The notes under the pieces were generated by a model. That model saw only the letters and a list, made by a program, of their open reading frames with translations. It did not search any database and was not told where the DNA came from. A stretch of 64,000 bases of DNA. Source: Xestospongia bergquistia (lineage: Eukaryota > Porifera > Demospongiae > Haplosclerida > Petrosiidae). This document shows positions 17,792 through 58,277 of this stretch, piece after piece. Location of the stretch: NCBI GenBank assembly GCA_963965975.1, contig OZ014414.1, forward strand, positions 6,919,501 through 6,983,500. Reading direction: 5' to 3'. The stretch's first letter is position 1. Every line of letters starts with the position of its first letter. The translations under genes and the position numbers were made by a program.

Positions 17792-20700
17792 TTAAGAGTG
17801 ACGAAACTTCATCTCAGAGAACTTTAAAGTAGACCCTTTCCACTGTTTCCAAATAATTCCTTTATGATTGTCACTATCTCTTCCAATGTAAAGTCCATTA
17901 AGATTTGAGTCATAACATGCATTATACCACCATCCTCCTCTGAATGTTATTGCACAATTACCAGATCCAGCTCTATCATTATCACTATCTTTTGTGGTGA
18001 ATTTGCATCCATTATGAATCATCAAACTATCACCAGCTGTCCCATTATATTTACCTAAAAAAAGAGTATATTTTGTAGTAATGTCTCCAATATTGAATGC
18101 AGAGTACAGAGCATAGGTTTTATTGTTTTCAAAGTCTTCTAGATTGACTTGTAAACTGTTTATTTTATTGTAAGTAAGTCGATATATTTTATTCAATCCT
18201 AGCCAAAATTCGCCTGAAAGGTTGCCAAAACCTTCATTATAATCTGTCCAGTTACGATAGAAGTTAATGGAGCCATCCATTCTTCTTTGAATAACAGTCC
18301 AACCACCACCATCAGTCTTCATGTCACAGTACACCTATAAGCAATGATGAAAAAATTAACTTTTTTATCTGTTTATTCATAGCATCTATCTGTATATAGC
18401 TAGTTATCCATTTATCTATCTAAGTAAAGAAGTACCTCAAATGGAGTCCCTCCATCAGGATTAATAATATATACACCACTGATAGTATAACCTGACTCAT
18501 ACCAGGTCTTACAAGTTTGATCTCTGTATTCTATTATAAAGGGTTTGTTTCAGAAAAGCAAAACTGAACACTTACTTTGACAAGCAACAGGAAGTACTGA
18601 TGGACAAATGACAATTTTCTTTCTTCCATTCTGTATTATTGAGAATATTTTTCCAAGATTATAAACATTACAGCAGTACTGTTCATATAGTGATGGTTGA
18701 TATGTTTGCAATATTGTGCTGTAATTTGTCATACTAGGAAACACTCCATGACTTAGAAAATCACATATTTTCCCAGTATATCCAGTGTTACTACAATCAC
18801 AAGTGAATTTATTGGGAACAGATCCTATAATGCATCTTCCTCCATTTCTACATGGATGGTCTTTTAAACAGATATTAGTTAAAATGCAACCATTGCAATC
18901 AATGTTTAGTTCTTCTCCAGGTCCACAATCACTACTAATGTAGTGACAGCCTATAGAGAGAGTAAGATCAGTTATAAACTAATGCAACCTTACTCTATCT
19001 ACCTATATCATACACAATGTTGCTCCAATTTGAAGTTGGTGAATTAAGGCAGTTAATATTTGCCTGAACCAGTCTTGATAATGGAAAGTTTGCAAAAACA
19101 GTGTTACTAGCACTAAATCCTATAATAGCATTAGTTCCATTCCAATCAAATAGACCACATTTGTATGTAAAAATAGCATATGTCTTGTTTCCTTGAGATG
19201 CCAATACAGTTTGAAAGGCACTGCTATTAGTCTGTTGTCATAAAGAAATTATTGAAATATAATGTATTAAGTACACATACTTTATTGCTTGTGTTTGTGT
19301 TCATCCATTGAGCCACTAGTATCCAGTCTGCATTAAAATTGATACTGAAGTTATAAGCTAAATAGTTGTTGACTAGGTCAATAATTTTAGTTAGTTCACT
19401 GATATCACTTTTGATGATAGTGTAGTTAAGTTGATTTGCAGTGTTTATGTTCCAATATGGAGCAATTACTTTAGCAGATATTGGGAATGTTTGTGGCATA
19501 TGATAGGTGTAGTTTTGTTCAAAGCTTATTAGCCCATTCTTATTAACCTAAAAAAGTATTATTAATATAATATGTAAAACTATATTAAATATTATTTATG
19601 TAATACTTACACATACTGCATTATAGGTCATATTTCCAAATTGTAGTGGTGATGGGAGTAAAAGAAACTGAGAGCTATCATCCACTTTATGAGTATTAGA
19701 TGAATTAAACTCCAAAAATGGTAAATACAGAGTTGGACCTATATTATAGTTTTATTACCATTTAAATATTACCACAAAACTTCTTACCTTCACAACTATA
19801 ATTTGCATTTTCATTGACACAGACAGTATCAGAATCACATTGAATATCTTCCATTACACATTCATTAATATCTATGAAAAACATTGTGTATTTTAATTGT
19901 TAATTAACAATAGTAAATAATGACTATATATAAGTGGAGTTAGACAATCATCCATTGTATTACCACTTACCATTACATGTTATTCCATTTCCTGCATATC
20001 CATTTTGACATTTACATGTAAAGCTACCGTTTGTGTTTGTACAGATGGCATTTTCATGACAGTTATTGTTTTCTTTACTGCTACATTCATTGATATCTAG
20101 TGAAAAGTATTCATTTATAATAGAATTATAAAGTCACTTACCATTACATGTTATTCCATTTCCTGCATATCCATTTTGACATTGACATGTAAAGCTACCG
20201 TTTGTGTTTGTACAGATGGCATTTTGATGACAGTTATTGTTTTCTCTACTGCTACATTCATTGATATCTAGTGAAAAGTATTCATTTATAATAGAATTAT
20301 AAAGTCACTTACCATTACATGTTATTCCATTTCCTGCATATCCATTTTGACATTTACATGTAAAGCTACCATTTGTGTTTGTACAGATGGCATTTTCATG
20401 ACAGTTATTGTTTTCTCTACTGCTACATTCATTGATATCTAGTGAAAAGTATTCATTTATAATAGAATTATAAAGTCACTTACCATTACATGTTATTCCA
20501 TTTCCTGCATATCCATTTTGACATTTACATGTAAAGCTACCGTTTGTGTTTGTACAGATGGCATTTTCATGACAGTTATTGTTTTCTTTACTGCTACATT
20601 CATTGATATCTAGTGAAAAGTATTCATTTATAATAGAATTATAAAGTCACTTACCATTACATGTTATTCCATTTCCTGCATATCCATTTTGACATTGACA

Positions 20701-23700
20701 TGTAAAGCTACCGTTTGTGTTTGTACAGATGGCATTTTCATGACAGTTATTGTTTTCTCTACTGCTACATTCATTGATATCTAGTGAAAAGTATTCATTT
20801 ATAATAGAATTATAAAGTCACTTACCATTACATGTTATTCCATTTCCTGCATATCCATTTTGACATTTACATGTAAAGCTACCATTTGTGTTTGTACAGA
20901 TGGCATTTTCATGACAGTTATTGTTTTCTCTACTGCTACATTCATTGATATCTAGTGAAAAGTATTCATTTATAATAGAATTATAAAGTCACTTACCATT
21001 ACATGTTATTCCATTTCCTGCATATCCATTTTGACAATGACATGTAAAGCTACCGTTTGTGTTTGTACAGATGGCATTTTCATGACAGTTATTGTTTTCT
21101 TTACTGCTACATTCATTGATATCTAGTGAAAAGTATTCATTTATAATAGAATTATAAAGTCACTTACCATTACATGTTATTCCATTTCCTGCATATCCAT
21201 TTTGACATTGACATGTAAAGCTACCGTTTGTGTTTGTACAGATGGCATTTTCATGACAGTTATTGTTTTCACTACTGCTACATTCATTGATATCTAGTGA
21301 AAAGTATTCATTTATAATAGAATTATAAAGTCACTTACCATTACATGTTATTCCATTTCCTCCATATCCATTTTGACATTTACATGTAAAGCTACCGTTT
21401 GTGTTTGTACAGATGGCATTTTCATGACAGTTATTGTTTTCTTTACTGCTACATTCATTGATATCTAGTGAAAAGTATTCATTTATAATAGAATTATAAA
21501 GTCACTTACCATTACATGTTATTCCATTTCCTGCATATCCATTTTGACATTTACATGTAAAGCTACCATTTGTGTTTGTACAGATGGCATTTTCATGACA
21601 GTTATTGTTTTCTCTACTGCTACATTCATTGATATCTAGTGAAAAGTATTCATTTATAATAGAATTATAAAGTCACTTACCATTACATGTTATTCCATTT
21701 CCTGCATATCCATTTTGACATTGACATGTAAAGCTACCATTTGTGTTTGTACAGATGGCATTTTGATGACAGTTATTGTTTTCTCTACTGCTACATTCAT
21801 TGATATCTAGTGAAAAGTATTCATTTATAATAGAATTATAAAGTCACTTACCATTACATGTTATTCCATTTCCTGCATATCCATTTTGACATTGACAAGT
21901 AAAGCTACCGTTTGTGTTTGTACAGATGGCATTTTCATGACAGTTATTGTTTTCTTTACTGCTACATTCATTGATATCTAGTGAAAAGTATTCATTTATA
22001 ATAGAATTATAAAGTCACTTACCATTACATGTTATTCCATTTCCTGCATATCCATTTTGACATTTACATGTAAAGCTACCATTTGTGTTTGTACAGATGG
22101 CCTTTTCATGACAGTTATTGTTTTCTCTACTGCTACATTCATTGATATCTAGTGAAAAGTATTCATTTATAATAGAATTATAAAGTCACTTACCATTACA
22201 TGTTATTCCATTTCCTGCATATCCATTTTGACATTTACATGTAAAGCTACCATTTGTGTTTGTACAGATGGCATTTTCATGACAGTTATTGTTTTCTCTA
22301 CTGCTACATTCATTGATATCTAGTGAAAAGTATTCATTTATAATAGAATTATAAAGTCACTTACCATTACATGTTATTCCATTTCCTGCATATCCATTTT
22401 GACATTTACATGTAAAGCTACCATTTGTGTTTGTACAGATGGCATTTTCATGACAGTTATTGTTTTCTTTACTGCTACATTCATTGATATCTAGTGAAAA
22501 GTATTCATTTATAATAGAATTATAAAGTCACTTACCATTACATGTTATTCCATTTCCTGCATATCCATTTTGACATTTACATGTAAAGCTACCATTTGTG
22601 TTTGTACAGATGGCATTTTCATGACAGTTATTGTTTTCTTTACTGCTACATTCATTGATATCTAGTGAAAAGTATTCATTTATAATAGAATTATAAAGTC
22701 ACTTACCATTACATGTTATTCCATTTCCTGCATATCCATTTTGACAATGACATGTAAAGCTACCATTTGTGTTTGTACAGATGGCATTTTCATGACAGTT
22801 ATTGTTTTCTTTACTGCTACATTCATTGATATCTAGTGAAAAGTATTCATTTATAATAGAATTATAAAGTCACTTACCATTACATGTTATTCCATTTCCT
22901 GCATATCCATTTTGACATTGACATGTAAAGCTACCATTTGTGTTTGTACAGATGGCATTTTCATGACAGTTATTGTTTTCTTTACTGCTACATTCATTGA
23001 TATCTAGTGAAAAGAATTTATTCATGACAGAGTTATTTTGTCACTTACCATTACATGTTATTCCATTTCCTGCATATCCATTTTGACATTGACATGTAAA
23101 GCTACCATTTGTGTTTGTACAGATGGCATTTTCATGACAGTTATTGTTTTCTCTACTGCTACATTCATTGATATCTAATGAAAAGTATTCATTTATAATC
23201 GAATTATAAAGTCACTTACCATTACATGTTATTCCATTTCCTGCATATCCATTTTGACATTTACATGTAAAGTTACCGTTTGTGTTTGTACAGATGGCAT
23301 TTTCATGACAGTTATTGTTTTCTCTACTGCTACATTCATTGATATCTTTTAATGGGACAGTATTATTTTAGAATTTTAATATAATTTGTAATCATTAAAA
23401 ATTTTGGAGAATTAGCTTTAAAATTGTAATAAATTCTGTCAACGGACCTCATTAAATTTGGGTTCCACTAAACTGGAATATTGTGTCAATATTGATAGAT
23501 GTTCACACATAAAATAAACTATTGTATCTAAGTTGCATAGCTATTAATTGGATTAGTTAATAGAGCCAATTTGTTATTTATCCGACTGCTTGTTATAACT
23601 ACAGAATCTAATGACACAATAATTTCTTTTACTTTTTAATAGCAATTTCAGTTTTACCAATAATTTTGACCAAATCTATTATGCAATATCAAGCTGTACC

Positions 23701-26700
23701 TCCAAATATTACAAATTGTTACTAATAGGCCACACAAACATGAGTCAAAACGGCAAACATTTAAAAAAGAATTTTATAAAATAGTTCGCTTACTTAGCTA
23801 TAAACGTTTTTACATTATAAGGTGACGATTCTGCACGCCAATTTTATAAGGTCTGGATTTCAAATAAATTATTTTTTTATTTTCTTAACCATATGTGAAA
23901 TTATTTTTTTCTTTGTTAGTGAAGAAATTTGCAAGGAGAGTATTAATTTTTTGAATTGAGAGCAAAAGTCCCCAGTGACAGTCCAATTATAACAGAAGCT
24001 ATCGAAGCTGTGGATCTATACACATTGATTAGTAATAAAACAAGGACAAAAGTATATTTCGGAATAAAAACCTTGACAAAGAAGGAAGACGTTGGATGAA
24101 TCTCCACCATAAACGTTTTCCACCAATATATTTGAAGTAACAAAAGAGCATCACACAGATAGAAGATGTAGAATTGTTAATAGCAATTGAAAATACGTAG
24201 CTAACCAGCCTAACCTCCATGACAAGAACAGCACTGGTACTATAACAGTCAACCAATTCTTTTCAAGACCACACCCATCGACAAATTACGTTTGTCATAG
24301 TAATTAAAGAATCTGGCTGTAGTACACATAAGTAATATTATTGAGGGTCATCTTCAAACATTCTCTTTTTTAAAGAATGTTTGCATTACTTCTTTTAGTA
24401 TCATTATTAAGATTTTTTAATTTCTATACAGTTATTCACTATTGAACCTGATATTCACATTCTTCACAGAGATTATTGTCTTTGTCTTTAATTCACAATT
24501 TGATAATTAAGTAGCACACTGCTGGGATAGTAATTATTTGTAGCTTGTAAAATGGGACAAAAGCCATCTTGTATGGAAGTAGTCTAAATACCAATACAAT
24601 TTATTAGCTATGTTTGTAAATCCAGCAAGTTGTAATGCCTCAAAATTGTATAAAGACATCCATGAGTTTAGACTGTATTGTCACTAAGAAACATGTGCAA
24701 ATGAGGATAGGTTAGATGAGTTCATCGTGTTAGTATTAATGTTTTTTTTAATGTAGATAACTTTCTCAGGATAATTGCTGTCAATCAAAGCCAAAACAAA
24801 CTCGAGTTTTACTCCCGATAAAGAAATAAAAATTCAGCAAATTTTAGGACAATAAATAAATGAATTGCTGTTAAGTGACTTGTAGTCTTCTTTAAAGTTT
24901 TCGGGTCAAGTGAGTTTCAGGTTATTATAGGACTTAAAAACAATTTTTTCCAGTTTACAGAGGATTTGCCTACTCTGTTTTTGCTTACTATGCCTGGACC
25001 ACTTAGCAGATCAAAGCACAGAATGCTTACTAATTATATACTCTTAAAACACCTACTTGATAACAATTAGTCCAAAACATAATTTTAGAACTTGAACTTA
25101 CTTGTCAAAGTAAAGTCCAAACTAACAAAGTTAATAATTATAATATCTATTTACTAAGTTACTTTTGCATAATTTTGATTTAGTAAATAGATAATAAAAT
25201 TATTAACTTTGTTAGTTTGGATTTTAATTTGACAGGTAAGTTCAAGGATCATTTTATAAAGCAGTTATTATGGAGTTTATTACTAAAAAGTGAAATAGTA
25301 AAACATTAGTATATCAAAGGTACACCCATTAAAGTATAATAAAATGTTTCCTAGTGTATTCAGATTTCTCCCAAATACGACAGCCAAGCTAGCAAGCTCT
25401 TGTGGATGTATTTAACATTTCTGCTTAAATTAAATGCAAAACTGAGTTTGCAAGTCCATTATTGTGAACAATATATAAAGGTGATTTCAAATCATAAGAA
25501 ATAAGAAAACAGCAGCCCTCTCATTTGTACCAGCAAATTTGTTCCTCACACTTTGGTAATGTATAAAAGTAGAAACTCCAGAGTATTAAAACTATAAAAT
25601 TAACAAACTGAATAAAAAGGTTTACCAATAGTAATATATTTTATATATGACTGAGTATACTATGTTATAGGTTTATCAAGAATGAGTCATCATAGTCAGC
25701 ATAGGTAATTCATAGTGAACCCACACAAAAAAATAAACAACTAGTAGGGGAAATTATATGTACATGAATTAAGTACACCTTAAAAAGGTTAATTTTTGGA
25801 GCTGTGGTGAGTTCATAAGGTAAAAGATTTTAAAGAGAAATGGGAAAAGGGACAAATTACTCAAGTATGAGTTTGTATAGTCAAATGATTGATTCAAAAT
25901 CATTGATTGAGATCAGTAGTTTGAATAGTACAAGATAAATAATTATGAAAGGTTACAAGATCTGGAAGGAAAAACACATTATTTACAAATGTTTCTTCTA
26001 GGAAAGGTAAATTAGTTAATAATTGGAACTCTCAAGTGTGCAAATCTCATTAGCAGTATAGGCAGACCAAATTGGCATTTGTACATATTCAACATGTGGT
26101 CATACAAGAGTTTTGTATAGCTGGAACATCACATCTCATTTACTAAACATGTGAACTTCCTTGAGTAGAACCTTCTATATAGAACACAGCGAATTTGTCT
26201 AAGGTTTAATTGGCGCATATTGTGCTAATGTATGTAGACAAAGATTGATCCCTGCTCAGTAACATACCTAAGTACATAATCTGTCCTACGTTGACCTGTA
26301 TATGTACTACATATACAGGTCAACGTAGGAGATGATAACCATTCAACGCAATAGGATCAGGAGAAGGTGATGGTGACTTACACCTTGATATAATCAAACC
26401 GTATTTATGATAAGAGTTGACACTATTCTGAGCATTAATTAGTATATAAAACATGTTATAAATGCTACAGACTTGTTGGAAGCTCACACATGACCATTGT
26501 AAACTATGACAATTCATATGTGTTAGAAACTACACTTCAAATTACATTACATGAAGCAAATATAAATCAACATTTTACTCACCATGTCTAGTCAACCGCT
26601 CTGTAAAGCACATATATATGTACAACTAGAAGTGACATCACAACATGTAGTTTAAAAAATGAAGCAAATTAGTTGCCTAAATAATTGTAAATTCAAAGCA

Positions 26701-29700
26701 GAAACACTAAGTCTTGAAATAGCCTCTGTTTTATTTTCAAGCAAATGTATTCCAGTGGTATTATATATATATGACATCACATGAAAGCAATAACTGCTTT
26801 GGTCATCCAAAATTCCTTCTGGCGAAGCATCAGGTACCACGAGTGTTCAAAGTGTGCTAGATGCCCCTCTGCGTATTTCTGATTCAGGAGGTAAAAAAGT
26901 ACGTAAAGCAATATACCCCTAAACAGCATATCATAATTCATAGCTTGCCTGATGTGTATTTGTAGGGTCAGCTTTCAGGTTTGGTGTGTGTTTTGGTCAA
27001 TTACTAGACCACAAATTTTATTATTGCATTCCTTTGTGTCCATAATAACAGTTGCACAGCTAGGCTTTGTCTGCCAATACAGTTCTTTCACTGCTTTGAT
27101 CTTCAAGGGAGAGAAGTGGTTGAGTGTGTAAATCAGTCTGTTTAGTACTCCTACAATTCTGGCCCTGATTGTACATTACTCTGAATAGTACTTATAAAAG
27201 CAGTCATCTTTTTTCCTATTGTGACAAAGGAAGACATTGCATTCTATACAATACCATATTTTCTCTTTTCTATAGTGTTACCATTGTGGTAACAGTAGTG
27301 ACACTGTCACCCTCTTTCAGCTCCTAAAATGGAAAGTGTTGTAAATGAGCTTTTTAATTGTATTAATTGAAGGACATGCACCCAGTACATTTATGAGAGC
27401 AATAACCATTTGTTAATGATGTTGCCAACACCTCTCAGAAGTCTTTTAATGATCCTAATTCACAGGTCAATGTAGTGCTGACATAATATGAATGTGTTAG
27501 TAATTGTCATGCCACCTACAAACCAAAAGAAGTACTTATGATTTTCTTCTTTTGGTGCTTATATGGCAGCAGTCATTGCTCAACAATTCCAACAAGGAGC
27601 TCTTTTGTGAATAATCAGAGAAAAAGATCAAGGAGTGTTGATGGTAGTTGCCTCTTAGATCCAACAGAATATGTGAATTCCTCTATGACAACTGACTTGT
27701 GCTCACTAGTCCATTCCAAATCAGCATGACTACGAAGCTAAGTAAGTTAGCAATTATTATTACTATATTCTGCCTCAGATTCATCATTATTAGCATCATG
27801 ATTAGTAAAATTATCATCAGCAACTAATCAAGGCAGGTAAAGAAAGAGCAACCTCACGAGGTAGAGCAAGAGTTTCCAGCCAAACAAAAGGTAATCACAC
27901 ATTAGTCGAACATATTAGCAACTTCAAATTCAACACTCCTGTCTTAGCAAAAGAAACCAGCGCTTTTTGCACCAGTCAATTCAATTCAATTATATGATGT
28001 TCAAATCATTATGTATTATATGACGATTTATGATGTCATGGTAGCTTCAAGGTGAAACACAACCATAAGTAGTCTTGAATTCCTTAAGATCTAGGAAACT
28101 TCACATAATTTCATTTATTAATCAACTATTCCTGTAGTTATTAAAAACAGCCTACCGGAAATTTTTCCGTGATTTTAATTTGCGCTTTGCGGTTGAGAAA
28201 AAATCGCACAATTAAATTACCATAATATTATAATTAAATTATTGCGTGGGCGAAATGTAGATAATTTCTGGGTGGAGTTTGAATAGTGACACGTGGTTAT
28301 TGCTGTGAAAGATGGCTCTTTTCAAATACTTTTCACGAGAAATGAGTACAACGAAGGCTTCCTCGTCGCTTACTATTAAAGAGAAGGAAATAGTGAGGGT
28401 TTTTGTGAAAAAAGCAGAGAAACAAGGACGTGGGAAGTACTACTACTGTATCCCAGAAGAAAGAGCAGCAATTGGGATGTATGCAGCGGAAAATGGGCCA
28501 GGAAGGGCTTGTAAACATTTCACTAAAGTACTTGAAAAGAATGTTCCTGAAAGTTCAGCTAGGAAGTTGAGAGCCGAATATCTCAGGCAGTTGAAAACTG
28601 AAGTTGAGACAGAAGATGCCAAGTCATCTAGTCCATGTACCAGTATCAAAGTTTTGCCAACAAAGAGGCAGGGAAGACCATTACTTGTTGGCCAAAAACT
28701 AGATGAAACCATCCAAGGCGTTATTAGAGAAACTAGAAAAGCTGGTGGAGTGATCAATACATCAGTTGTTGTAGCCATGGCCATGGGTATTATAACATCA
28801 AAGGATCCTTCATTGGTCCATGAAAATGGTGGCCATTCAGTGTAATACGCAGCCGGACCTTTTCATAGACAGGAAGGGGTCTTGTTTACACTCTAAGCAG
28901 AAACATGTTGCTTCGCTCCTATCTAAGAGACAGCTCACAGTGCTTCACTTCATTGAGCGATGGAAAGTAGAATTGGAATGTCCAACTTCGATTTCCGTAG
29001 GTTTAGCACTCATAGTGCAGTTTTCTCCTTCCTCAGCATTCCTAGGAAACCACTATTTGGTCAACAGGTACTTGAACAAACCATAATGTTAATACGTATA
29101 GCATAATAGCGTTAGCACATAATTATTACAAACTACAGTTATAAAAATATTACATAGTTAATGAAATTCCTTTTTGACAACTGTACTATGCGTGGTAGAC
29201 CAGACACTTTCTTTCTAAGGAAAGGGTCTGGCCTCGTGAGAATAATGGTAAATTTGATTCTATAGTACTATTATATACTAACCTGTATCACAACTATTTC
29301 CAATCCATCCACTATCACAGTTACAAGTATTTGGTGGTCCACAAGTTCCATGTACACATCCTTGAGAACATGTTGCTAAATTTAACGTAATAATATCAAC
29401 ATTTTATAGCATCAATGTCTTACCAATACAATTAGGATATGTTCCAGTATATAGTGGACAACATGTTGATTTCTGATAGTAGACAGCTACTTGTCTATAA
29501 GCCCAACCCTGTGAAGTTATTTGCCTATACAATGTATATGACATAGGTTAAGAACTAGCAGGAACAATAACAAACGTGTACCTATAACAACGACGACGTG
29601 ACCACCATCCACATCCATACCCTTGAGAAGAGTATATTGTGACAGTATATGAATTGCTTGTATAATATACTCCACTTTGGTAACAACTGTGTAAAAGCTC

Positions 29701-29794
29701 AGATAATATCATGCAGTTAATACTCACCTTACCTTTGACTTGCAGAGAGTGTGATCAGGATTGCTATAAGTACTGTGATACTAAGGACTGTCAT
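17792..29794 (-). CDS. Secreted EMI-EGF-(cbEGF)x20-NIDO-EGF-fibrinogen-like matrix protein
   Basis: A likely extracellular matrix or adhesion protein. Exons, 5' to 3': 29733-29794, 29582-29686, 29424-29524, 29283-29375; twenty 126-base exons from 23220-23345 down to 19971-20096; then 19788-19871, 19611-19738, 19281-19547, 19003-19231, 18576-18950, 18436-18530, 17792-18334. All phases match and the sum is 4,602 bases (1,533 residues). The ATG at 29794 opens a signal peptide (MTVLSITVLIAILITLSA). Exons 2-3 form an EMI-like domain ending in CCPLYTGTYPNC, followed by one EGF. Each array exon is a six-cysteine EGF with the DINEC calcium motif and a NTNGSF site. The 19788 exon is an EGF with only four cysteines. 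NIDO-like sequence follows (VNKNGLISFEQ, QTVLASQGNKTYAIF), then an EGF (CRNGGRCI). The last three exons encode a fibrinogen-related domain (YCDMKTDGGGWTVIQRR, GGWWYNACYDSNLNGLY). The 5.9-kb intron before the array is unusually long. Confidence 0.8.
19971..23345 (-). repeat. Exact 171-bp tandem array of 20 EGF exon-intron modules
   Basis: The marker tgatatct recurs at 20091, 20262, 20433 and so on to 23340, nineteen steps of exactly 171 bases. Each module is one 126-base cbEGF exon plus one 45-base GT-AG intron, and the introns are almost identical to one another. Differences are few: K, Q or H in the CKC position, HEN or HQN, KE or RE. Intron 23004-23048 is clearly diverged, and intron 23175-23219 and the last exon slightly. 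The array is therefore oldest at the 5' end of the gene. Confidence 0.97.
25088..25235. repeat. Imperfect inverted repeat (hairpin, MITE-like)
   Basis: An arm of about 65 bases starting acttgaacttacttgtcaaa is repeated in inverted orientation ending ttgacaggtaagttcaag, with a short AT-rich centre. No coding sequence. Probably a small non-autonomous DNA element. Confidence 0.7.
26285..26329. repeat. Perfect 21-bp inverted repeat
   Basis: cctacgttgacctgtatatg and one more base are followed, after three bases, by the exact reverse complement. It lies inside the long intron on its own. Confidence 0.9.
28312..28845 (+). CDS. Truncated transposase-like protein (pogo/Tigger-like N-terminus)
   Basis: The open frame of 177 residues begins with ATG and is rich in K, R and E, as in DNA-binding regions. 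Its end contains KRQGRPLLVGQKLDE and later GGVINTSVVVAMAMGI then HENGGHS. This pattern is typical of the region before the catalytic domain in pogo/Tigger-like transposon proteins of invertebrates. The frame then stops and no DDE catalytic region follows, so the element is incomplete. It lies antisense inside the long intron of the EGF/fibrinogen gene. The family call is from memory of the motif pattern and is not certain. Confidence 0.5.
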   Translation: MALFKYFSREMSTTKASSSLTIKEKEIVRVFVKKAEKQGRGKYYYCIPEERAAIGMYAAENGPGRACKHFTKVLEKNVPESSARKLRAEYLRQLKTEVETEDAKSSSPCTSIKVLPTKRQGRPLLVGQKLDETIQGVIRETRKAGGVINTSVVVAMAMGIITSKDPSLVHENGGHSV

Positions 29795-33156: not shown

Positions 33157-34542
33157 TCATTGATAATCTGGATAAGGTACATTATCAGAAGTTAAACCAT
33201 TAGCATATGTCCAAATATGTTTACGTGGACTACTACCGTATGTAATAGAAATACCATCAACATAACAAGAGTCAATTACAACTTTTTTACTATTAAATCC
33301 ATCAGGAGCTCGATACTGATACCCACTTAGTTGACCACACACTTTATTGTAATGAATTCCTTGAGTAGAAAAGAAAGTATGACTAAATGTACCAGAGTCA
33401 GGAAGACCGCACACATCATGATCAATGTTATTATACTGTTGTTGTGTCAAACCAGGAAGACAGTTGGCACCAGGTTCACTCATGTTGAGGTAGCCTACTC
33501 TCATCCAACCTCCTTTACAATCACAGTTACTACCCTCCATATCACAGTAGACTGATATGAGAGATCCATTTGGAGCCTGTAATGTGTAATAGCCTGATGG
33601 AGCTGAGCTGTATGCATGTAAAAGTAGAGAGCAATTATAGAAAGTAAATTTACAGTGGACAGATATTAAGGAACCATTTGCAGCTCTCATCAAGTAATAC
33701 CCAGATGGGGCTGGACCTTTTTCTTGTAAGACTTGAGAACAGTTGTCAAAGGCATTGTCATCACAATAGACAGATATTAAGGAACCATTGTGAACTCTCA
33801 TTGTATAGTACTCAGATAGAGCTGAACTGTTTTCTTTAAAGACTTGAGAACAGTTGTCAAAGGCATTGTCATCACAATAGACAGATATTAAGGAACCATT
33901 GTGAACTCGCATTGTATAGTACCCAGAAAGAGCTGAACTGTTTGCTTTAAAGACTTGAGAACAGTTGTCAAAGGCATTGTCATCACAATAGACAGATATT
34001 AAGGAACCATTGTGAACTCGCATTGTATAGTACCCAGAAAGAGCTGAACTGTTTTCTTTAAAGACTTGAGAACAGTTGTCAAAGGCATTGTCATCACAAT
34101 AGACAGATATTAAGGAACCATTAGGAGCTCGAATTGTGTAGTACCCAGATAAAGCTGAACTATTTTCGCTAAAGACCTGAGAACAATGGGAGAATGCGGA
34201 GTTAATTTTTTTTATAAAAAGTGAAATTTCTTCTAATTGCTCTAGTAGTTCATTGTTAATTTCAAAGTTATTATGACATTTGTGGGATATCTGAGAACAT
34301 AGTTGTGAAAGATGGAATTCACTACCATTGCTAATGTAATTGATTACAATACAAGTAACATTGCTATCATTAGAAGAATATAATGTCTTTAATGCTTTCT
34401 TTATGGAACTGGAAAAGAGATTACATCTGAGAACTGGATCATAAACTTTAATATCAATGATTTCATCATTACTCCTGGTCTTATTTGCAAAATCACCACA
34501 ATACAAGAATGACAGAACAGCAAATAAAAAAATTTTCCTCAT
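33157..34542 (-). CDS. Secreted protein with six tandem fibrinogen-N-like stubs, C-terminally truncated
   Basis: A single-exon frame of 461 residues starts at the ATG at 34542 with a signal peptide (MRKIFLFAVLSFLYCGDF). After an N-terminal region rich in Asn and Cys it has six 37-residue units of the form C-S-x-V-F...SGYYTMR..NGSLISVYCD. These resemble the opening strand of fibrinogen-related domains, ending in GGWMRVGYLNMSE and a C-terminal domain with YVDGISITYGSSPRKHIWT. The intact relative at 57027 has only two units and about 100 more residues at the end. Here the frame stops at a TGA where the relative has Cys, and sequence beyond is decayed. The shortened protein may still be made, or this may be a recent pseudogene. 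The function is unknown; surface recognition or adhesion is a guess. Confidence 0.6.
   Translation of the reverse strand: MRKIFLFAVLSFLYCGDFANKTRSNDEIIDIKVYDPVLRCNLFSSSIKKALKTLYSSNDSNVTCIVINYISNGSEFHLSQLCSQISHKCHNNFEINNELLEQLEEISLFIKKINSAFSHCSQVFSENSSALSGYYTIRAPNGSLISVYCDDNAFDNCSQVFKENSSALSGYYTMRVHNGSLISVYCDDNAFDNCSQVFKANSSALSGYYTMRVHNGSLISVYCDDNAFDNCSQVFKENSSALSEYYTMRVHNGSLISVYCDDNAFDNCSQVLQEKGPAPSGYYLMRAANGSLISVHCKFTFYNCSLLLHAYSSAPSGYYTLQAPNGSLISVYCDMEGSNCDCKGGWMRVGYLNMSEPGANCLPGLTQQQYNNIDHDVCGLPDSGTFSHTFFSTQGIHYNKVCGQLSGYQYRAPDGFNSKKVVIDSCYVDGISITYGSSPRKHIWTYANGLTSDNVPYPDYQ
33740..34183 (-). repeat. 111-bp coding tandem repeat
   Basis: The string cagttgtcaaaggcattgtc recurs at 33740, 33851, 33962 and 34073, exactly 111 bases (37 codons) apart. 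The middle copies are nearly identical, so this expansion is recent. The outer units (33600-33740 and 34120-34190) are more diverged. Confidence 0.9.
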
Positions 34543-34892
34543 TTTTGAAAATGTTTCACTTATTTTGGAATAGCTGTTAACTTACTAATAAAAATGAATC
34601 TCTGTCTGAAGAAATAAATAACACTAACATGTACACTGTAATTTAGTCTAAAATTATTTCTTGTATATCTAAGCAATTAAAACTAACAGAGCTATATTCT
34701 AAATTCAGTTAACATATGGCAATGTTGGTGTTGCTTACTGTTTAAATTTCAAGGTATACAATAATTGTTTGTTTTGTATGCTGAAAATATATTCAATTAT
34801 CAACACTAACAAATCAAGTTAAATCTAAAACATATATATGTTGTTTTAAATATCAAGATATATGATAAACACTGCATTGCAATTATATAGTA

Positions 34893-56661: not shown

Positions 56662-57026
56662 TATAATGGTAATTTATATTATATTACTCTTAAAACAAAT
56701 GGATTGTTTTAACCTATTCATGGACATCATCATGATTCCATAGTAACAGCTCTGGTCCAGTTAGCATCTTATATTTTGTCTAAGATTGTAAATGATAATT
56801 AGTTCAAGCCATTAGCTACAAAACAATCAATCCCCATTAGTACATTAACAATCAAAACAGTGTTATGTTTTCTTTTTTGAATGAAATAATTTTGATACCT
56901 ACAAATTGTATAGCCATTTAACTATACATGGTTAAATAAACCAAACAGCTTTTAAAGTGATATAAGTATCTGTGATAAAATTTCCTTACACCATTTTCAG
57001 TTAACGTATAGTTTTTGTACCTGCAA
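56662..57026. other. Intergenic, includes a promoter-side block shared with the other stub gene
   Basis: Between two + strand genes. At about 56815-56875 the bases resemble those at 35655-35715, upstream of the paralogous minus-strand gene (aacaatcaat, tagtacatta). This may be remaining similarity of the duplicated upstream regions. Confidence 0.35.
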
Positions 57027-58277
57027 ATGATGTACTTTCTCATTGTAACTCTATTTCTCTCAGGATTTGATATTGTTCTGGCAGATAATACAAATTATAT
57101 ACAATTAGTTGATGTCCATCCTTCATCATTTAAATGTGGTCACGATCTTCACAGTTCACTGAGCGGAGTCCTAAAATTGTTACCTTTTAATGATGCTATT
57201 GGAAAGGCATATGTGAACAATGATATTAAGTTTTCTCCACCGCACAAGCATTCTGAGATTTCTGATAAGTGTCATGATAACTTTAATCCTAACAGTGAAC
57301 TACTAGACCAGTTAGTAGAGATCTCACAGTTCATAGGCATTTTTAACTCTGCATTTTCCAGCTGCTATCATATCTTTAAAGGAAACAGTTCAGCTCCTTC
57401 TGGGTACTACATGATGAGAACTGCAAATGGTTCTTTAATATCTGTGTACTGTGACCTTTCTTTTTTAAATTGCTCTCAGATTTTCCATGTGTACTGCTCA
57501 GCCCCATCAGGTTATTACACAATACAAGTTCCTAATGGTTCTCTTATATCAGTCTACTGTGATATGGAGGGTAATAACTGTGATGGTAAGGGAGGTTGGA
57601 TGAGAGTGGGTTACATCAATATGAGTGAACTTGGTGCTACCTGTCCTCATGGGCTAACATTACGTCAGTATAATAACATTGATCATGGTCTATGTAGTCG
57701 ACCAGTCTCATCATCTGGTAGTTCAGCTTCAGTATTCTTCTCTACATATGGAGTTATTTTAAACAAAGTATGTGGACGAGTGATTGGATATCAGTATGGG
57801 TCACCTGATGCTTTTCCACCAGACTTAGGGGGTCTAGTTCATGTTAATAATCCAAATATTGATAACATTTATGTTGATGGTGTTTCTATTACATATGGCA
57901 GTAACCCTCGTAAACATGTATGGACATTAGGAGCGGGTTTTCATGCTGACCGTACTAATAGCTATGTTTATTCTTGCCCATGTAATACTGGTAATACAAA
58001 AACAACTGTACCAATTTTTGTTGGCAATGATTATTACTGTGAATCAGGAGTAGCTAGTGGAACGTTGAGCAGTGTCCTGTATCCTAATGACCCATTATGG
58101 GATGGACAACAATGTGGAGGATTAGAAGGACCATGTTGTACTAACTCCAAGATACCATGGTTTATAAAGACACTCAATGAGACTACAAATAAAGATATTG
58201 AATTGAGGATAATGGCAGATGAAGGTACCAGTAATGAACGCATACCATTAGATATTATAGAACTGTACATTCACTAA
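57027..58277 (+). CDS. Secreted protein with two fibrinogen-N-like stubs and a conserved C-terminal domain
   Basis: A single-exon gene of 416 residues. The first ATG in frame after the flanking sequence is 57027, giving signal peptide MMYFLIVTLFLSGFDIVLA. After a Cys-containing N-terminal region (DKCHDNFNPNSELLDQLVEI) there are two stub units (SAPSGYYMMRTANGSLISVY; SAPSGYYTIQVPNGSLISVY). Then comes GGWMRVGYINMSE and a domain with YVDGVSITYGSNPRKHVWT, GNDYYCES, DPLWDGQQCGGLEGPCCT and ending PLDIIELYIH. This order mirrors fibrinogen-related proteins (stub, GGW, Cys-rich end), but the C-terminal part is not a standard fibrinogen domain. It is the intact relative of 33157-34542. Likely extracellular; partner unknown. 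Confidence 0.75.
   Translation: MMYFLIVTLFLSGFDIVLADNTNYIQLVDVHPSSFKCGHDLHSSLSGVLKLLPFNDAIGKAYVNNDIKFSPPHKHSEISDKCHDNFNPNSELLDQLVEISQFIGIFNSAFSSCYHIFKGNSSAPSGYYMMRTANGSLISVYCDLSFLNCSQIFHVYCSAPSGYYTIQVPNGSLISVYCDMEGNNCDGKGGWMRVGYINMSELGATCPHGLTLRQYNNIDHGLCSRPVSSSGSSASVFFSTYGVILNKVCGRVIGYQYGSPDAFPPDLGGLVHVNNPNIDNIYVDGVSITYGSNPRKHVWTLGAGFHADRTNSYVYSCPCNTGNTKTTVPIFVGNDYYCESGVASGTLSSVLYPNDPLWDGQQCGGLEGPCCTNSKIPWFIKTLNETTNKDIELRIMADEGTSNERIPLDIIELYIH

Follow-up and report, generated by a model that had tools for sequence, protein, structure and literature searches.

The calcium-binding EGF (cbEGF) array described here lies in a 64,000-nucleotide stretch of the genome of the sponge Xestospongia bergquistia (GenBank assembly GCA_963965975.1, contig OZ014414.1, positions 6,919,501 to 6,983,500), referred to below as the window, and consists of 20 consecutive exons that, together with the introns between them, repeat a single 171-bp unit. 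These exons are numbers 5 to 24 of a 31-exon gene encoding 1533 amino acids, in which all 30 introns are bounded by GT and AG and the sole stop codon lies at the end (Table 1). The domain order of the product is signal peptide, Cys-rich domain, EGF, 20 cbEGF, a short cbEGF, NIDO, EGF and fibrinogen C.

The array exons start at minus-strand positions 23345, 23174 and so on down to 20096, with a spacing of exactly 171 bp in 19 of 19 steps. Every exon is 126 bp long, in phase 1-1 and free of stops, with frame and six Cys kept (20/20), and all 19 introns measure 45 bp and have the form GTAAGT...AG. Seventeen of these introns are letter-identical, with departures confined to intron 1 (2/45 sites) and intron 2 (9/45), while the intron that follows unit 20 is a different sequence of 99 bp. 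The preliminary description of this DNA had claimed twenty EGF exons at an exact 171-bp period, near-identical 45-base introns and symmetric phase 1-1 units, and all three statements hold. Tandem Repeats Finder independently delimits the repeat to 19964-23347 (period 171, 19.8 copies, 97% matches, score 6439), and the periodicity is far beyond chance. Distinct sequences number 15 among the 20 exons and three among the 19 introns. Calcium-ligand and Asn/Asp-hydroxylation motifs occur in all 20 domains, and the linker between successive domains is, by sequence, one residue. An unusual invariance of the 17 inner introns (0/45 variable columns against 10/126 in exons) was considered and set aside as weak, and it is not seen in three other arrays of the same genome, in which exon and intron columns vary at 22/126 and 7/45, 29/126 and 25/50, and 15/126 and 9/50, respectively.

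Sister genes of the host gene carry very different numbers of units (1, 1, 1, 1, 1, 3, 12, 29 and 40 in nine of them). Besides the 20 units in the window, multi-unit arrays are located at C4:6885-6887 kb (12 units), C8:6543-6551 (40), C8:6557 (3) and C8:6562-6567 (29); single-unit loci occur at C4:6846, C4:5962, C1:12542, C1:12554, C3:6288 and C8:6570, a diverged locus lies at C4:6206 kb, and no unit was found within the 5 kb examined at the paralogue at C4:5687 kb. Units were found by an exon pattern and a nucleotide profile, the C3 unit having been missed by the former and found by the latter. In a midpoint-rooted tree of the NIDO-to-fibrinogen bodies, aligned for ten loci, the window gene groups with C4:6846 and C3 (100/99), both single-unit, and the 40-, 3- and 29-unit genes form a separate group (100/100). 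Body identity is 93.2% between the 20-unit gene and a single-unit gene and 93.9% between the 40- and 29-unit genes, all with intact bodies, and 94.2% between the 40-unit gene and the 3-unit gene, the body of which is broken; unit number has therefore changed many-fold while the bodies diverged by a few percent. The gain and loss of units that had been proposed for the window is thus seen here between paralogues, with a range from 1 to 40. As a separate observation, the bodies of the two single-unit paralogues at C1:12542-12544 kb and C1:12554-12556 kb are 99.3% alike, the second being cut at its 3' end.

Unit statistics and trees were based on 109 exons found by pattern at ten places, and block order was analyzed in the four long arrays (12, 20, 29 and 40 units); these analyses did not include the C3 unit, a second array family at C8:6038-6067 kb, or the two copies at C4:6206 kb, one of them diverged and the other a fragment. 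Within the window array (190 unit pairs), divergence is 2.8% at silent sites, 1.8% at replacement sites and 2.6% in introns, while comparison with the 12-unit paralogue gives 20.2% at silent sites and 20.7% in introns. Because introns are homogenized to the same degree as silent sites, DNA turnover rather than selection on the protein makes the units alike. Each long array has its own diagnostic sites, with introns of either 45 or 49-50 bp. The exon tree of 109 units needs 13 between-gene changes, where the least possible is 9 and the shuffled mean 57.6, and the intron tree of 99 units needs five, against a minimum of 4 and a shuffled value of 37.1; the 20 window exons form one group with a support of 91/82. 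Separate exon and intron phylogenies of single units, which the preliminary description had named as a check, thus cluster the units mostly by gene in both cases.

Exchange inside the exons is indicated by the distribution of variants. At sites 22, 68 and 84, all eight possible combinations are present among the 20 window units, which places exchange breakpoints inside a 62-bp stretch. Informative pairs of sites with all four combinations amount to 5/10 in the window array, 20/55 in the 12-unit, 68/190 in the 40-unit and 6/36 in the 29-unit array. Unit order also retains traces of block duplication in the paralogues: the 40-unit array shows a lag of 5 (0/2000 shuffles as low) and of 10 (p 0.0005), the 29-unit array a lag of 2 (p 0.001), and the 12-unit array a lag of 1 (0/2000 shuffles), with a run of five identical exons. 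Exon and intron types are uncoupled in the 40-unit (correlation -0.07) and 29-unit (0.12) arrays and coupled in the 12-unit array (0.65). In the 29-unit array, changes of intron type between neighbors are not in excess (p 0.72), and the same type two units apart is (p 0.007). The deviating introns 1, 2 and last fit the expectation that exchange is rarest at array edges. Intron 2 might be a relic of an older state, with four of its nine odd sites matching the last intron of the 12-unit gene and five differing from it.

At the DNA level, it is therefore proposed, with a probability of roughly 0.8, that the 171-bp unit of exon plus intron is gained, lost and overwritten through exchange between units of one array. 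Unequal crossing over would act in steps of one to several whole units, and short gene-conversion tracts would end inside the 126-bp exon; together, these two processes offer the simplest account of the units. As all units are in phase 1-1, the reading frame survives each step of gain or loss. The earlier proposal that exon plus intron is the duplicated unit and is homogenized by exchange accordingly stands, on intron and silent divergence, the trees and the site combinations. A single recent burst of duplication from one unit, with likeness reflecting youth and no continuing exchange, would produce low divergence and 17 identical introns, and the two nearest paralogues do have a single unit each. 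However, the eight combinations at three sites and the five of ten four-combination pairs require either exchange or many repeat mutations, and the older variation present in the 40- and 29-unit arrays (15.8% and 7.0% silent differences, respectively) is still reshuffled, which leaves such a burst improbable.

Several observations count against the proposed mechanism. Grouping by gene is imperfect, with 7 changes needed for the exons of the 40-unit array and 5 for those of the 29-unit array, and with an exon sequence common to more than one gene; both trees have few columns, and the imperfect grouping fits either this shortage or some exchange between those neighboring genes. In the window array, no lag in block order is significant (p 0.09 for the best, lag 3), which means that its block duplication is deduced from the paralogues, and the lag p values are uncorrected over 9 to 12 lags per array. 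The first and last exons differ at only 2 sites, which leaves introns 1 and 2 as the sole indication of reduced exchange at the array edges. Unit and body histories also differ: the window units depart from the C4:6846 unit at 11-14 of 126 sites and from the C4:5962 unit at 10-13, yet the window body is much nearer to C4:6846. Only the first part of the C4:5962 body lies in the aligned stretch, the remainder being about 9 kb away and inverted, so its low body identity is not a true distance.

Constraint on the genes is uneven as well. In the 40-unit array, variants comprise 17 replacement and 16 silent changes against an expected replacement share of 82% (p 7e-5, or 7e-4 with transitions weighted double), and purifying selection acts on its units. 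None is seen in the window array, where the variants (8 replacement to 2 silent, p 0.57) match the expectation for no selection, and neither the 12-unit array (18 replacement to 7 silent, p 0.20) nor the 29-unit array (11 to 6, p 0.09) gives a significant result. Between the window body and its nearest intact paralogue, replacement and silent divergence are nearly equal (pN 0.053, pS 0.059, Fisher 0.68; introns 0.123), and relaxed constraint on the window gene is possible; its intact frame argues against a dead gene. When the exon borders of the window gene are projected onto the ten bodies, five are intact to the normal stop (window, C4:6846, C1:12542, 40-unit and 29-unit) and four are broken (12-unit, 3-unit, C3 and C4:5962), while C1:12554 has no early stop but a short end. 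As the 12- and 3-unit genes are among the broken ones, part of the variation in array length may be drift in genes that are being lost.

Table 1. Host gene of the cbEGF array and its parts, in positions of the window
Feature	Position	Strand	Basis
Host gene	17792..29794	minus	
Exon 1, start codon and signal peptide (MTVLSITVLIAILITLSASQ)	29733..29794	minus	Alignment with C4:6849, C4:6890 and C3; in frame
Exon 2, first half of Cys-rich domain, EMI-like by eye	29582..29686	minus	
Exon 3, second half of Cys-rich domain	29424..29524	minus	
Exon 4, EGF domain, ends in phase 1	29283..29375	minus	
5937-bp intron between N-terminal exons and array	23346..29282	minus	
cbEGF array, 20 exons of 126 bp and 19 introns of 45 bp, period 171	19971..23345	minus	
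Shortened cbEGF exon (21st), outside the array	19788..19871	minus	
NIDO domain, three exons (19611-19738, 19281-19547, 19003-19231)	19003..19738	minus	Pfam NIDO 2.3e-18
EGF domain and linker exon	18576..18950	minus	
Fibrinogen C domain, first exon	18436..18530	minus	
Last exon, fibrinogen C domain and stop codon	17792..18334	minus	Pfam Fibrinogen_C 8.3e-69

The 5' exons of the host gene, which lie 5.9 kb from the array, were located through their conservation in three paralogous loci. Introns of 45 bases are usual in this gene, the 11 non-array introns measuring 45-101 bp with the long 5' intron as the one exception. The stretch of that intron adjoining unit 1 is alignable with several paralogues, and the acceptor region of unit 1, of the ATTAAAAG type and with TTA/TTG differences resembling silent changes, was considered as coding sequence and rejected. 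An alignment of 10 rows, about six of which look related over some hundred bases, contains no conserved frame upstream of unit 1, and an in-frame stop is visible by eye in the window; unit 1 is therefore regarded as a normal exon whose acceptor is poor. At approximately 25080-25250, within the same intron, an inverted repeat resembles a small mobile element by eye. For the N-terminal Cys-rich domain, no EMI model is among the Pfam matches listed up to E 10. The EGF domain encoded by exon 4 has PEAR1-like and Delta/Jagged-like EGF as its best Pfam models, the PEAR1-like match (5.1e-7) being below the cut-off of that model. In the 40-, 3- and 29-unit group and at C1:12542, match positions place NIDO and EGF exons upstream of the array or unit; exon 3 has six matches in the genome, itself included, none of which falls in that group or at C1:12542. 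The array border may thus mark a swap of N-terminal modules, with a Cys-rich module in the group of the window gene and NIDO plus EGF in the other.

The encoded protein is probably secreted, the signal peptide in exon 1 being its sole strongly hydrophobic 19-mer (mean 2.24, against 0.90 for the next best past residue 30). Pfam was run at E 0.001 on two pieces that make up the whole protein minus units 3-19, which are near-copies of scanned units. The C-terminal domain belongs to Fibrinogen_C, with 232.2 bits against the curated cut-off of 22, and its nearest PDB relatives are FIBCD1 and ficolin-2; PDB relatives of the cbEGF domains include NELL2, uromodulin, Notch and fibrillin. Tenascins are defined by EGF, FN3 and fibrinogen C domains, and sponge aggregation factors carry Calx-beta repeats. 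In the two scanned pieces, Pfam found neither FN3 nor Calx-beta, which sets the protein apart from both classes, nor an Ig domain, which sets it apart from snail fibrinogen-related proteins (FREPs) in the strict sense. The genome yields at least 151 matches each to Fibrinogen_C and NIDO, and the host gene family is part of this large expansion.

At the protein level, there is an even chance that the array encodes a stalk, adjustable in length, of a lectin acting in innate recognition or in the matrix. Tandem cbEGF domains with one-residue linkers form stiff calcium-dependent rods, in which each domain contributes about 3 nm of length. The 20 domains would accordingly form a stiff rod that spaces the C-terminal fibrinogen head from the N-terminal part, spanning roughly 60 nm in the window gene and roughly 120 nm in the 40-unit gene. 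Unit number would then set the reach of the recognition head, so that the products of sister genes with 1, 20, 29 and 40 units would have much the same head on stalks that differ greatly in length. This interpretation is favored by the likeness to FIBCD1 and ficolin-2, the expansion in the genome and a response in the sponge Dysidea avara, in which fibrinogen-domain genes are up- or downregulated following microbial cues (PMC6208332). The expanded fibrinogen-C/NIDO family most likely serves the recognition of microbes or glycans.

The preliminary description had also suggested a matrix or adhesion protein with a possible link to allorecognition. The first suggestion is consistent with a probably secreted NIDO/fibrinogen-C architecture that has no second strongly hydrophobic segment; the second finds no support, with neither Calx-beta nor Ig in the pieces scanned with Pfam. 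A role in allorecognition or aggregation, with unit number as a label of the individual, would suit the labile unit number among paralogues and the adhesive-looking architecture. Nevertheless, it is regarded as very improbable in view of the absence from the scanned pieces of those domains, which are tied to allorecognition, and of FIBCD1 and ficolins as the nearest solved head domains.

Exchange between units also has to be weighed against an error of assembly, in which units were miscounted or two haplotypes were joined into a mosaic. Tandem 171-bp units that are nearly identical pose a well-known risk to assembly, although the 15 distinct exons among 20 are enough to anchor the sequence, and the array, at only 3.4 kb, is below the length of usual long reads. 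Four arrays in which diagnostic sites are array-specific and introns measure 45 or 49-50 bp weaken this concern without removing it, and an artefact is judged quite unlikely. Purifying selection on the EGF protein alone, without any homogenization of DNA, is practically untenable: the six Cys and the calcium-binding pattern do occur in 109/109 units, though a similar pattern was used to find them, but likeness within the gene is hardly greater at replacement sites than in introns and at silent sites, eight of ten variants in the window array alter the protein, and intron identity refutes it for that array.

Homogenization of coding units by exchange between copies is a known process. One close parallel is the kringle IV type-2 (KIV-2) repeat of LPA, which encodes human apolipoprotein(a) and is likewise built from a coding unit of exon plus intron in 1 to about 40 highly homologous copies; its 5.6-kb unit holds two exons and varies in number between people (PMC11462820, PMC4378929). 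The window array shares with KIV-2 the copying of a whole exon-intron unit of symmetric phase and homogenization by exchange; unlike LPA, its unit measures 171 bp with one exon, and close paralogues differ 20-fold in number. In Argiope MaSp2 silk, exon/intron units are homogenized within a gene and divergent between paralogues, some genes have alternating intron types, and introns have been proposed to aid exchange (PMC9779670). Its exons encode low-complexity repeats, whereas each window array exon encodes one folded cbEGF domain. Tenascin-X reportedly has exons and introns homogenized in the same way, and tenascins, like the host protein, end in fibrinogen C, as their PDB matches indicate. 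Unlike tenascins, the host protein has no FN3 in the scanned pieces, a NIDO domain, a different N-terminus and a unit number that is very variable among paralogues. Drosophila dumpy is reportedly the subject of a 2007 study by Carmon with concerted evolution in its title. Dumpy is described as a giant extracellular EGF protein (PMC2930355). With invertebrate fibrinogen-related proteins, the host protein shares a FIBCD1/ficolin-like fibrinogen C head and membership of a large expansion in the studied genome; unlike snail FREPs, it has a long cbEGF stalk and NIDO in place of Ig, which is absent from the scanned pieces. Neither such an architecture nor a sponge EGF array appeared in the titles and abstracts of the matches listed from one open library, which is not proof of absence. 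The copying process is thus known from LPA KIV-2, tenascin-X and Argiope silk, and the small units and the paralogue series are not described among those matches.

Other repeats occur in the window and elsewhere in the genome. A second intragenic array lies at 33658-34185 on the minus strand, within the open reading frame 33157-34581, and comprises 4.8 copies of an intronless 111-bp (37-residue) unit with 92% matches; a relative, with about two copies by eye, is located at 57012-58277 on the plus strand, and nested palindromic tandem repeats occupy 390-1107. The array family at C8:6038-6067 kb is likewise built from cbEGF exons and introns, which occur at several loci and repeat every 217-219 or 233 bp or so. 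Of the 150 EGF matches listed for the genome, 119 fall in one open frame of 4819 amino acids at C10:6548416-6562416, where they are set apart by multiples of 114 bp; this frame is an intron-free counterpart of the window array.

Self-homogenizing coding repeats of exon plus intron are known from few genes, and this single genome presents a graded series of 1, 3, 12, 20, 29 and 40 units before the same NIDO-EGF-fibrinogen body. The series allows measurement of the speed with which units are gained, lost and overwritten, of exchange in exons relative to introns, and of the importance of stalk length in a lectin-like protein. It is possible, though unlikely, that the whole family operates a heritable length dial, in which unit number would vary between individuals, reach would follow it and recombination in the arrays would renew the lengths. 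If so, immune or adhesive diversity would arise through the length of a ruler rather than the sequence of a binding site, and variation of unit number between individuals would offer a natural experiment on length as an innate-recognition trait.

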